From NCBI GenBank assembly GCA_019261985.1, contig JAFAQY010000109.1, positions 62,001-126,000 of the forward strand: a stretch of 64,000 nt of DNA, given 5' to 3'. Source of the stretch: Bryobacterales bacterium. Its GTDB lineage: Bacteria > Acidobacteriota > Terriglobia > Bryobacterales > Bryobacteraceae. Of the stretch, positions 20,270 through 25,107 are shown one piece after another. Both the position numbers and the translations under genes were made by a program. The notes beneath the pieces are model-generated. The model did no database searches, was not told the origin of the DNA, and saw only the letters and a program-made list of their open reading frames with translations. Position 1 is the first letter of the stretch. Each line of letters opens with the position of its first letter.

Positions 20270-20274
20270 ATCGG
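20270..20274 (+). repeat. Left target-site duplication ATCGG
   Basis: ATCGG directly outside the left terminal repeat. The same five bases directly follow the right terminal repeat at 25103-25107. IS21 elements usually duplicate 4-8 bp. Confidence 0.65.
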
Positions 20275-20430
20275 TGGGGAATCCGGGGCAAGATGAACGC
20301 GATTCCGGGATGATGCCGAACGGTGTTCCGGGATGATCTCCACAGGATCCGGGGTGAACACCGCTTCCGGGATGAAGCCGAACACTTTCAGGTCGATCCC
20401 GGAAAGGTGTTCGGCTTCGCCGAGTGATTT
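20275..20430 (+). repeat. Left end of the IS21-like element with multiple terminal repeats
   Basis: Contains at least three related units with TTCCGGGATGA followed by CCGAAC or similar (about 20302, 20325 and 20368) after the outermost TGGGGAATCCGGGGC. The region up to the istA start at 20518 has no gene. Confidence 0.65.
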
Positions 20431-20517
20431 CCGCAGGCAGCTAAAGGCGCTGGACACCACAATGGCAGGCAGCCTCCCCTCGAAAGGGAGGATCAGCTTG
20501 CAGCCAGGAGATTGTCC

Positions 20518-21665
20518 GTGCGCGAGATCAAAGAAGTTCTTCGATTAAAGTTTGAAGTGGCCTGGGCTGCGAGCGATCGCCCGAAGCTGCTCGATTGGCC
20601 TTGGCACCGCACACGAGTATTTGCAACGGGCCGAAGCTGCCAAGATCACGTGGCCGCTTGGACCGGAGTGGGACGATGACCGGCTTGAGGCTGCGCTATT
20701 CGGCGGCTCGCCGCGCAGCCGTCCGACGGTGCTGCCCATGCCCGACTTCGCCGAGCTTCATCGGCAGCGGCAGCAACATTCACACGTGACCCAGCAGTTG
20801 CTGTGGGAGGAGTACCGGCAGGCAAACCCGGATGGCTATCAGTACAGCCGCTTCTGCGAGCTGTACCAGCGGTGGCGGCGGAAGCAGGATGTGGTGTTGC
20901 GGCAGGGGCACAAGGCCGGCGAGAACCTGTTCGTGGATTGGGCAGGAACAACGATACCGATCCACGATCCGCGCGGCGGTCCAGTGCAGCAGGCCCATCT
21001 ATTCGTCGCCTGCTGGGGGCCAGATCCCACACGTACGCCGAAGCCACTGCCGACGAGCAGCTGGCAAGCTGGATCGGCGCTCACGTCCGTGCCTTTGAGT
21101 TCTATCAAGGCGTACCAAAGCTGGTAGTGCCGGACAACACCAAGACCGGCGTGACCAAAGCCTGCCGCTACGATCCGGATCTGAACCCCACTTACCAGGA
21201 GATGGCCATGCATTACGGCGTGGGCGTGGTTCCAGCGCGGCCATACAAGCCTCGGGACAAGGCCAAAGTGGAATCCGGTGTGCCTCTGGCGGAACGTTGG
21301 ATTATCGCCGCGCTGCGGAATCGGAAGTTCTTCTCCATCGAAGAGTTGAACCAAGCGATCCGGGAGCTGCGCGACCGCATCAATCGGCGGCCTTTCCGCA
21401 AACGCGAAGGTTCGAGAGCCACGCAGTTCGCGGCGGTGGACAGACCTGCTATGGGTTCGCTCCCGGCGGAGCGTTTCGACTTGAGCGAATGGTCTCGCGC
21501 TCGGGTCAACATCGACTATCACATCGCCTTTGACACGAACTACTACAGCGTGCCTTACAACTTGGTCCAAGAACTGGTGGAAGTACGCTCGACGCCGACG
21601 ACTATTGAGATCTTCGATAAGAGCCAGCGCGTAGCATCGCACCTGCGCGCACACGGTCACCTCCG
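20518..21665 (+). pseudogene. istA: IS21 transposase remnant (istA), two frameshifts and 3' deletion
   Basis: Starts with GTG at 20518 (VREIKEVLRLKFE, the canonical IstA start). The frame is lost at about 20560 and resumes shifted with LRAIARSCSIGLGTAHEYLQ, the IstA helix-turn-helix. The first DDE-domain aspartate is in [14 protein letters not shown] second frameshift at about 21012 moves into [31 protein letters not shown] (second Asp) and [12 protein letters not shown] (Glu, with the lysine-rich end of the catalytic triad), and the C-terminal domain follows to about 21660. There the sequence jumps into the istB C-terminus. The catalytic residues are still recognisable but the gene cannot make an intact protein. 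Confidence 0.85.
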
Positions 21666-21887
21666 CTGTCCGAACCCGAGCGCCGGGATTTCTGGGAGAT
21701 CTCCGAGGATCGCTATCAGGTGCGCTCGACCATCTTGACATCCCAACTGCCAGTCTCGCGCTGGCACGAGCAGATCGGCGATCCTACGCTGGCCGATGGC
21801 ATTCTCGACCGGCTTGTTCACAATGCACATCGTATCGAGATGCGCGGCGATCCGATACGTAAGAACCGGGGGAAGCCGAATCCTTAA
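21664..21887 (+). pseudogene. istB: IS21 helper ATPase remnant (istB C-terminus only)
   Basis: About 73 codons ending in TAA at 21885: [20 protein letters not shown], then [20 protein letters not shown] and LADGILDRLVHNAHRIEM. This is the sensor/C-terminal part of the IstB AAA+ protein. The N-terminal Walker A and B regions are missing, so a deletion of several hundred bases fused the istA tail to the istB tail at about 21664. Confidence 0.85.
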
Positions 21888-22253
21888 CTTCCGGTTGGCG
21901 CGTGACTCGCTCCGAACTGCGGCGACGCCGTCCTGCCAGATGTACGATACGATGACAACCCATCAAGCTGGATGCGTCAGCAACTTCGCTACCGGGATTC
22001 TCGTGGCGCAACATGAGCAGGGAATCCTCCAACTGTCCGCGGTGCTCCCGGAGCGGTCCCGGAGATGCGACTCGATGTGTTGGGCATAGAAATTTCTATT
22101 TGCGGGTACACGTTACGATCAGCGAGAGGCCGTCAGAGCTGGCGTTCCATTTTCGGGCACGTCAACGCGAAACCGACCACTGGTTGACCGCTCCGTTGAA
22201 TGGAATCAAGCATCACAGTCGGAAGCCAAGTTGCACTCAAAGTCGAGAACCCT

Positions 22254-24686
22254 ATGCGAAGCGTCCTTGAAGACCTCCGGTACGCGGCGGCTGTCCTCCG
22301 CCGGACCCCGTCCCTGACTGCGGTGGCAGTGCTTACTTTGGCGCTCGGTATTGCCGCCACCACGACTGTCTTTGGCTGGATCGACGGGATGGTCCTGCAC
22401 CCCTTCCGCGGCGCCACGGATGACGGACAACTTGCCGTCCTCGAATCCGTCCGTGCCAGCGGCATCGAGGATCCTCATGTTTCTTATGCCGACAGCCGGG
22501 ACTTTGAGGACAATCTCCCAAGCATTTCTGGATTGGAGCTCAACCAAAAGGCTCCCGCCTCCATCGGCGACGGAGAGAACGCTTATTCCGCATGGATCGA
22601 ATCCGTCTCCGGAAACTATTTCGACGTACTGGACGTAAAGCCAATCCTCGGCCGCACGTTTGCGCGCGAGGAAAACGGTGAACGGGCCAAAGCGTTCACG
22701 GCAGTCATCAGCTACCGGCTGTGGCAGAACTACTTCCGCAGCGACCCGTCCATTCTCGGCCGCATCGTACACATAAACCGATACCCGGTCACCATTGTCG
22801 GTGTAGCGCCTGCGGAATTTCAGGGCGATTTTCCTGGCACCGCGCTGGATGCCTGGATTCCGGCGCCACTCGCCGGCCAAGTCGATCGCAATGCGCGGCA
22901 ATTCATGGCCATCGTCAGGCTTAAACCGGGCGTCAGCGTCTCGCGGGCAAGCGCCGAAGCGGCGACAGTTGCCGCTCGCCTTGCGGGTGCCTTTCCGAAG
23001 ACCAACGAGGGCGTCGGCGCCCGGATCGTACCGATCTGGAAGGCACAGGATGGGGCCTCAGGAATTTTGGCATCGCCGATGGCCATTCTCGGCGCAGCCT
23101 GCGGACTCGTGCTCCTGATTGCGTGTGCGAATGTCGCCAATCTTCTACTGGCTCGTTCCGCATTCCGGCAGAGGGAGTTCGGCATCCGCCTCGCTCTGGG
23201 CGCGGGTCCGGGTCGCTTGCGCCGCCAGTTATTTTCCGAAAGCCTGCTTATGGCGATCCTGGCGACGCTTGCGGGGTTGCCTCTCGCTGTGTGGTTTCAG
23301 AACCTCCCCGTACATCTCGCGCCGCCCACGGGAATACCGGTGTACTTAAACGTCCACCCGAGCGCGCGCGTGTTCCTTTTTGCGGCCCTGGTCTGCCTGG
23401 TTTCCGCCCAGATTTCCGGTCTTCCACCCGCGTTTCAGTCGATGCGGCGCAGCGTAGTGGATGCGCTGAAGCAAGGAGGAAGAGGCGATACCCAAAGCGG
23501 GCACTCGCGGCGAATCTCCGGGCTACTGGTGATCGCCGAGGTAGGCTTGGCGCTGGCGGCTCTTGTGACGCTCGGATTGTTTCTCCGGAGCCTTTACGGA
23601 TTGCAGAACACGGCGGCCGGTTTCGATCACAGGAACGTGATCGTGGGCCGTCTTTTTCTGGCGACGAACAACTACACTCCCAGCGAGGAGCAGCAGTTCT
23701 CCCAGCGGCTGCGCGAGGGCCTGCTCGAATCACCGGGGGTGACCGGCGCCGCTTATTCCGACTCGATTCCGCTCGGTTTCGGGCTAGGGAAATGGAACGA
23801 CATTACGGTAGAAGGGTATGCGGCAAGGCGCGGCGAGAACCTGGGGGTGCATCACGCCTCGGTGTCGCCCGGCTACTTCGATGTGCTGAGGATTCCGCTT
23901 CTCGCCGGACGCGATTTCAAAGCTGAGGACAACCCGAACGCGCCGCGCGTCATGATCGTCAACGAATCCTTCGCGCGACGCTTTTTCGACGGACGCGACC
24001 CGGTGGGGCACCGGGTGCAGATTGAAGGCGGCAACCCGCTCACGATCGTGGGAATGGTGAAGGACAGCAAGTACTACAGTCTGTCTGAAGCGCCGCAACC
24101 ATACTTCTATACGTCCTTCGATCAGGTGCACTTCGGCAGTGGCGAAAGCGGCGTGGCCTTCTACGCGCGCACCGATCGCGATGTGCGCAGTTTCGTCCCG
24201 GTTCTCCGCCGCGAGATGTCGGCCATTGATCCTAACTCGGCTGGCGTGACGGCCATGGCTCTTTCGGATTACATCTCGGCTGCCTGGTTCGGGCCACGGC
24301 TCGCCTCGTTGTTCCTCGGAGTCCTGGGCCTGATTGCCATGCTGCTCGCCGGTGTAGGCCTTTACGGAGTTATGGCTTACTCGGTCAGCCAGCGGACCCG
24401 GGAAATCGGCATCCGCATGGCGCTGGGGGCCGACCCTAAAGGCGTCCTCGAGATGGTCATGAGACGAGGCTTGTTTCTAGCATTATCTGGGATCGCCGCC
24501 GGGCTCGTCATCGCCCTGGCGGCGGCCCCGCTGATCGCGCCTCTGCTGTACCATGTCAGTCCCGCGGACCCCGTAAGCATTGCGGGAGCAGCGCTGTTCC
24601 TCATTGTGGTTGCCGTAACCGCGAGCCTGATCCCAGCGCTGCGAGCCACCAGGGTTGACCCGATTCTCGCGCTCCGCGAGGAGTGA
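22254..24686 (+). CDS. ADOP-family FtsX/MacB-type permease
   Basis: 810 residues from ATG 22254 (MRSVLEDLRYAAAVLRRTP). The acidobacterial duplicated orphan permease plan is complete: transmembrane segment 1 (about 20-40), a MacB periplasmic core domain (DPHVSYADSRDF, VSGNYFDVLDVKPILGRTF), three transmembrane helices with the first FtsX domain (about 280-400; LLARSAFRQREFGIRLALGA), a linker helix, a second MacB core domain (VSPGYFDVLRIPLLAGRDF) and a second FtsX domain at the C-terminus (VSQRTREIGIRMALGADPKG). No ABC ATPase gene is adjacent, as usual for 'orphan' members. The gene lies wholly within the IS21-like element. Function is unproven; MacB-like mechanotransmission in export is the usual inference. 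Confidence 0.88.
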   Translation: MRSVLEDLRYAAAVLRRTPSLTAVAVLTLALGIAATTTVFGWIDGMVLHPFRGATDDGQLAVLESVRASGIEDPHVSYADSRDFEDNLPSISGLELNQKAPASIGDGENAYSAWIESVSGNYFDVLDVKPILGRTFAREENGERAKAFTAVISYRLWQNYFRSDPSILGRIVHINRYPVTIVGVAPAEFQGDFPGTALDAWIPAPLAGQVDRNARQFMAIVRLKPGVSVSRASAEAATVAARLAGAFPKTNEGVGARIVPIWKAQDGASGILASPMAILGAACGLVLLIACANVANLLLARSAFRQREFGIRLALGAGPGRLRRQLFSESLLMAILATLAGLPLAVWFQNLPVHLAPPTGIPVYLNVHPSARVFLFAALVCLVSAQISGLPPAFQSMRRSVVDALKQGGRGDTQSGHSRRISGLLVIAEVGLALAALVTLGLFLRSLYGLQNTAAGFDHRNVIVGRLFLATNNYTPSEEQQFSQRLREGLLESPGVTGAAYSDSIPLGFGLGKWNDITVEGYAARRGENLGVHHASVSPGYFDVLRIPLLAGRDFKAEDNPNAPRVMIVNESFARRFFDGRDPVGHRVQIEGGNPLTIVGMVKDSKYYSLSEAPQPYFYTSFDQVHFGSGESGVAFYARTDRDVRSFVPVLRREMSAIDPNSAGVTAMALSDYISAAWFGPRLASLFLGVLGLIAMLLAGVGLYGVMAYSVSQRTREIGIRMALGADPKGVLEMVMRRGLFLALSGIAAGLVIALAAAPLIAPLLYHVSPADPVSIAGAALFLIVVAVTASLIPALRATRVDPILALREE

Positions 24687-25030
24687 CCGGCCGAGCGGTT
24701 GCGCCCGCGCCAGGTCAGGCGGCGTTGGCGGGTTTGGTGAGACAGAGCGCGTGACGCCACACTCGGTCGTGTGCCCTGCCCTTCGAAGTGCCCGCGCTAA
24801 GCTTCGAGTGGATGAATCCGCAATCCGGCAGTGAACCGCCAATGTCTGGAGCGCTATTCGCGCTCCAGGGCCACTGTGTGCTGAGGCGCGGACAAAGGCT
24901 GCCGCCCTTTCCCCGCACCCCTTTCTCGGCTTGCGGCACCGTTCCTCCGCTTCGCTGCGGACAGGTTTCTCTCGACGAAGCCGAACGCTTTACCGCACAA
25001 TCGAGTTGCCAGCGTCGCCACGCTCCGATG

Positions 25031-25102
25031 GTGTTCGGGATCATCCCGGAATGCCGTTCGACTTCCGTTCGGAACAAGCGTTCAGCTTCGCCGGAATCCC
25101 CA
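25031..25102 (-). repeat. Right end of the IS21-like element
   Basis: Reading inward on the minus strand: TGGGGATTCCGGCGAAGCTG, then TTCCGAACGGAAGTCGAACG and ATTCCGGGATGATCCCGAAC. These match the left end in order and orientation. The end lies 131 bases upstream of the TonB receptor start. Confidence 0.65.
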
Positions 25103-25107
25103 ATCGG
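25103..25107 (+). repeat. Right target-site duplication ATCGG
   Basis: Second copy of ATCGG, immediately after the terminal CCCCA. The matching copy lies at 20270-20274. Confidence 0.65.

Follow-up and report, generated by a model that had tools for sequence, protein, structure and literature searches.

The archetype of the IS21 family contains istA and istB, flanked on either side by an end with repeats (PMC11208146), and insertion sequences that harbor passenger genes, the transporter IS (tIS), are a known kind of mobile element (PMC9330008, PMC3129680). In the open-access literature, we found no report of an IS21 element with passenger genes. A study of the Solibacter genome described mobile elements near divergent paralogs and concluded that ancient transfer and duplication had taken place; it gave no vehicle for single genes (PMC3174227). 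Here, we analyzed a window of 64,000 nucleotides from Bryobacterales bacterium GCA_019261985.1 (contig JAFAQY010000109.1, positions 62,001-126,000 of the forward strand; coordinates are window positions), for which a preliminary description had proposed an IS21-like element carrying an ADOP permease and flanked by a target duplication. Positions 20275-25102 form one IS21-family element, which is bordered by a target site duplication (TSD) and has ADOP as its passenger (Table 1). Very likely, this is a decayed transporter IS, belonging to a clade that carries foreign DNA in one fixed slot, bounded by the istB stop codon and by a hairpin in the right end.

Table 1. Features of the IS21-family element and its passenger in the window.
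Feature	Positions	Strand	Basis
Left TSD copy	20270-20274	.	ATCGG, read directly; same pentamer at 25103-25107
Left end of the IS21 element	20275-20420	+	TGGGG tip, repeats spaced by about 22 bp; high nt identity to left ends of relatives
istA remnant, frameshifted, 3' part deleted	20515-21659	+	PF00665 and PF22483; 80-90% nt identity to istA of the closest relatives
istB 3' end	21660-21887	+	Stop codon at 21885-21887; 21661/21663-21880 match the istB C-terminus of L068-L075
Cargo segment, istB stop to right-end hairpin	21888-24847	+	Absent in cargo-free L071/L073; other segments instead in 18 elements
ADOP unit	22036-24772	+	Common to non-IS21 ADOP orthologs; limits from blastn match to L064, L212, and L213
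ADOP permease gene, 828 aa	22200-24686	+	TIGR03434, 801 bits; MacB_PCD and FtsX; dN/dS 0.21-0.26 against orthologs
Cargo stretch beside the hairpin	24798-24847	+	About 50 bp, also in the ADOP-bearing IS21 of G185; alignment score 46 versus 28 for shuffled sequence
Right end of the IS21 element	24848-25102	+	About 255 bp, CCCCA last; 75-88% identity to right ends of relatives
Hairpin GGAGCGC-TATTC-GCGCTCC	24848-24866	+	Opens the right end; stem plus one T-A pair (24847/24867)
Right TSD copy	25103-25107	.	ATCGG

The inverted ends TGGGG..CCCCA had been reported from inspection of the letters, and the alignment showed that they are real. The left end read from 20275 (TGGGGAATCCGGGGCAAGATGAACGC) and the reverse complement of the right end read from 25102 (TGGGGATTCCGGCGAAGCTGAACGC) aligned locally with a score of 52 over 64 nt, and the maximum in 2000 shuffles was 31. 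When the left end was used as the query in a DNA search of the whole genome, the right end was recovered at 77% (E=1.6e-4), and no match was found beyond the element itself and this right end. The internal repeats in the same order, also part of the preliminary description, could be located in both ends with a spacing of about 22 bp: four TCCGGGRTGA units on the left, at 20304, 20327, 20348, and 20366, and three TTCCG units on the right, at 7, 29, and 52 nt from the tip. The tips show the IS21-type TG start and CA-3' finish, and ATCGG was indeed present directly outside both of them; a match of 5 bp is expected by chance about once in 1000 cases.

Between these ends, both transposition genes are broken. 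The istA frame at 20803-21738 matched PF22483 (4e-22) and PF00665 (rve; 2.3e-6, below the curated cut-off), and a deletion of about 0.91 kb at 21660 has removed the end of istA and the start of istB, of which only the last 75 or so codons are left, with the tail RGKPNP* seen in the rest of the clade. This copy must, therefore, be dead without outside help. In an intact relative, IstA is an IS21 transposase (NF033546, 4.5e-88) and IstB an IS21 helper ATPase (PF01695, 7e-69; NF038214, 9.5e-76). Segments 20275-21659, 21663-21880, and 24848-25102 of the window aligned to consecutive, non-overlapping parts of the IS21 copies L068-L075, indicating that the two halves belong to one element, as had been proposed. 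With IS21 and IS5376, it has in common an IstA with rve/Mu_C, an AAA+ helper IstB, end repeats, TG..CA tips, and TSDs of 4-7 bp; judged by all the sequence features tested, it is a member of the IS21 family. It differs from the archetype (PMC11208146) in having foreign DNA downstream of istB, in a fixed slot that ends at the hairpin.

The only intact gene of the element was said to encode a full ADOP permease, and this was borne out by the match to TIGR03434 (E=8e-241; 801.5 bits against a cut-off of 622.3), which covered model positions 2-803 of 803. The conserved start is probably at 22254 (MRSVLEDL). Comparisons between orthologs gave dN/dS values of 0.20-0.29, and the gene is intact and under purifying selection. 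Like the other members of the ADOP family, it encodes a duplicated permease, and it is an ordinary member; what sets it apart is only its place as IS cargo. The comparison of its codon use with that of its neighbors, which the preliminary description had suggested as a check on origin, favored no side, since codon use and GC3 were both typical of the window and cannot discriminate between origins.

To place the element among its relatives, right ends were searched for in 257 genomes of the same bacterial order, most of them metagenome-assembled; matches were found in 88, and about 40 right-end regions were retrieved and dissected. This yielded 19 loaded elements, two of them with ADOP (the window and genome G185), and 12 related cargo-free ones. 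In the loaded elements, foreign DNA follows the istB stop codon directly and extends up to the hairpin that opens the right end of about 255 bp. The istB tail of this cargo type is mostly RGK-x-N-x-stop; it is longer in L070 and L075, and in the degenerate copies L143 and L145, the tail or the hairpin is altered. In the cargo-free L071, L073, and L238, the istB stop codon lies inside the hairpin itself. Inserts measured 0.46-3.7 kb and mostly held one gene, in either orientation. They represent 18 mutually unrelated cargo types, with ADOP alone occurring twice (window and L133): TIGR03435/DUF3738 (L143), a carboxypeptidase-regulatory-domain protein (CarboxypepD_reg; L070), LprI (L149), WG repeats (L145), DUF5063 (L140), LRR (L135), a WD40-like protein (L134), and, identified by eye, an AraC-type regulator with a cupin (L159). 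Several cargoes had no Pfam match, some were degenerate, and the 467-bp segment of L074 contained no convincing gene. L143 (G000:C82:105787-105998) comes from the same genome as the window, which thus has a second cargo-type IS21, a degenerate one. The view that passengers are uncommon in IS21 elements, thus, does not hold within this clade, where they are the rule: all 19 cargo-type copies found were loaded, and a single pair shares its cargo.

In the topology of the IstA/IstB tree (FastTree), the cargo-type elements formed one group, save L149, which fell among the cargo-free elements despite its cargo-type 3' end, suggesting recombination. As in other tIS, a passenger unrelated to transposition lies inside one pair of IS ends, and the ADOP gene between matching ends bordered by a TSD is such a case. 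The difference from tIS is that carriage here is near-obligate in a single IS21 clade, whose passenger changes from nearly every copy to the next but always sits at one fixed position. This clade-wide slot is what appears to be new in IS21, as judged from the open-access literature; passenger-bearing insertion sequences as such were already known.

The hairpin has the form GGAGCGC-N5-GCGCTCC and is the first feature of the right end. In 17 sequences, its stem, 8 bp with the neighboring pair included, was paired in 97.8% of the cells, and three pairs showed two-sided, compensatory changes, above both shuffles and slid controls, an analysis that supports a real covarying structure. The exact motif occurred 20 times in the 257 genomes and its reversed control 0 times; some of the exact occurrences had no recognizable right end adjoining them. 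Cargo could have entered either by illegitimate insertion filtered by selection or by a more specific exchange at this hairpin, and the precision of the cargo edges fits both alike. The second route, in its strongest form a site-specific cassette exchange resembling that at integron attC sites, is compatible with a passenger-carrying IS21 and would account for junctions that are precise to a few bases across 18 unrelated cargo types, for cargoes that are mostly single genes in either orientation, for L069 and L070, whose IstA proteins are about 93% identical and whose cargoes differ, and for a hairpin conserved with compensatory changes. Nevertheless, we consider it unlikely: the element has no recombinase of its own, the junctions of the cargo-type elements compared had no motif in common at the cargo ends besides the hairpin's own closing pair, and selection would also produce precise edges, provided that only DNA inserted after the essential istB stop and before the right end survives. 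The likeness to integron cassettes, in which genes of unrelated function likewise lie singly at one site next to a hairpin, is a resemblance only; here, there is one cargo per element, in both orientations, and no integron integrase was seen in the element, the surrounding ORFs, or the cargo segments (by eye, with Pfam for the main ORFs). Only in the gap that separates the istB stop codon from the hairpin would foreign DNA leave both istB and the right end functional, and the slot would tolerate cargo for that reason.

Next, the distribution of the ADOP gene itself was considered. Its orthologous group comprises 23 copies in the order, with 73-86% amino acid identity to that of the window, and the next relatives are at about 50%. 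Two of the 23 are borne by IS21. The second, L133, lies in another genus (G185) and has the arrangement left end, istA, istB, ADOP on the minus strand, hairpin, and right end, with a TSD of its own, TGCGC; the combination of IS21 and ADOP thus recurs. Around the other 21 orthologs, no IS21 ends were found in the available sequence; in a few cases, L219 and L221 among them, the contig stops near the gene, and an end may have escaped notice. Neighborhoods were nearly all different, with only four pairs of copies sharing theirs. In a sub-group of seven, copies from different genera were mostly 90-94% identical in nucleotides, and rpoB, where compared, was 75-80% identical; taken together with the differing neighborhoods, this indicates that the orthologous group is horizontally mobile. 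A mobile unit with fixed ends around the non-IS21 copies was considered and rejected, as the edges of the shared stretch vary by genome. The only transposase found beside this stretch was of the ISL3 type (recognized by eye), directly upstream of ADOP in two genomes of two genera (G183 and G218; L209 and L213), at different distances and with different junctions. From these comparisons, the ADOP group appears to move horizontally by more than one route, IS21 being one vehicle and not the only one. The idea that such elements are how ADOP genes spread, therefore, gained weak support, resting on two IS21-borne copies in two genera against 21 of 23 orthologs outside IS21. As a separate observation, the ADOP contig of G013 (L063; G013:C66, 2489-17741) is a mosaic of gene-sized blocks with 89-96% identity to different contigs of G020, G006, and G000; three consecutive blocks lie about 24 bp apart, which suggests gene-by-gene shuffling, and positions 1-230 of L063 are a repeat of about 230 bp with more than 10 copies in G013 at 80-100% identity.

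The element of the window sits between an NHL-repeat gene and a TonB-receptor gene, and the abundance of ADOP orthologs lacking IS21 ends (21 copies) raises the alternative that two unrelated IS21 fragments flank a resident ADOP by chance. An ADOP ortholog free of IS at the orthologous locus had been named as the refuting observation: IS-free orthologs do exist, but at non-orthologous loci. An empty site was looked for, but the NHL-TonB neighborhood was kept in none of the relatives examined. Genome G004 (L267; G004:C71, 4700-13796) does show NHL, ADOP, and TonB in the order and orientation of the window, which at first sight agrees with a resident gene; however, its ADOP (34% amino acid identity) and TonB gene (27%) are non-orthologous, so it was rejected as a resident ancestor, and all six other NHL orthologs with sequenced flanks had neither an ADOP nor a TonB gene alongside. 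No resident gene is, therefore, shown. Moreover, the IS21 pieces complement each other without overlap, the 5-bp TSD matches, G185 has the same architecture with another TSD, and both junctions coincide with those of 18 other elements. The two-fragment reading is highly improbable and already largely refuted.

A passenger-carrying IS21 would move as follows: IstA and IstB would act on both ends and mobilize everything between them, with the passenger traveling along. The element would then have inserted between the NHL-repeat and TonB-receptor genes, after which istA and istB would have decayed and ADOP would have been kept by selection. TSDs of 4-7 bp were found at the same tips in 7 of 11 complete cargo-bearing copies, the window included (ATCGG; L133, TGCGC; L074, CAAAG; L134, GCTCTT; L135, GAAGT; L140, GTGCGAG; L075, CTAG), and were absent in the other 4; one of the TSD-bearing copies is in G030, a genome of two contigs. 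Among the elements found, there was no pair with the same IS21, the same cargo, and the same orientation at different sites, and we therefore infer joint movement from the ends and TSDs. In the same G030, a related IS21 without cargo is present at two sites, in identical copies of 6,141 bp (L077 and L078); one is flanked on both sides by CGGTCCA and the other lacks a clear duplication, and the pair points to recent transposition of this IS21 group.

A TSD dates the insertion and says nothing on when the cargo was captured; ADOP could, therefore, have entered in place. In this scenario, a plain IS21 would have inserted first, generating ATCGG, and the ADOP unit would have come later and never have moved with the element. 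In its favor are a TSD that is silent on the order of events, the mobility of the ADOP group by other routes, and two IS21-borne genes that are opposite in orientation and not sisters in the ADOP tree, where that of the window grouped with G013 and G020 and that of L133 with G006 and G253. Against this stand the fact that all cargo-type copies found are already loaded and two features common to the window and L133: a cargo stretch of about 50 bp adjoining the hairpin, whose orientation agrees even though ADOP is inverted in L133 (score of 46 versus a shuffled maximum of 28), and a derived T-A pair closing the hairpin. Both elements, thus, probably come from a common loaded or partly loaded one, and the loaded slot would, at least in part, predate their separate insertions; we regard capture in place as quite unlikely. 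The opposite ADOP orientations may reflect a later inversion in place or two captures, as both fit.

An additional observation concerns istA, which in L074, L077, L078, and L158 is split at about codon 272, between KPRDKA and KVE and near the catalytic glutamate, by an insert of about 3.4 kb (the gap in L074 is 3.37 kb); L133 has a small deletion at this spot. In L074, L077, and L078, the insert encodes a large serine recombinase of 699 aa, and from its sequence it is assigned as a site-specific element that resides within the transposase genes of IS21. A group II intron was rejected, given the serine-recombinase element and no match in Rfam.

Collectively, the analysis indicates that host genes are probably acquired and moved by this IS21 clade, among them genes of families that have expanded strikingly in these bacteria. 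A further reading, that the slot is dedicated to gene capture by a specific mechanism and that the clade is a one-gene shuttle feeding the ADOP and TIGR03435 expansion in soil Acidobacteriota, is possible but doubtful. Large soil Acidobacteriota have unusually many paralogs, an expansion that is unexplained in Solibacter-like members (PMC3174227). An IS21 clade with single-gene cargo, in which two large paralogous families of the lineage, ADOP and TIGR03435, are represented, makes the question of paralog expansion testable, and as a naturally loaded IS21 system, it would allow the tolerance for cargo size and position to be measured.
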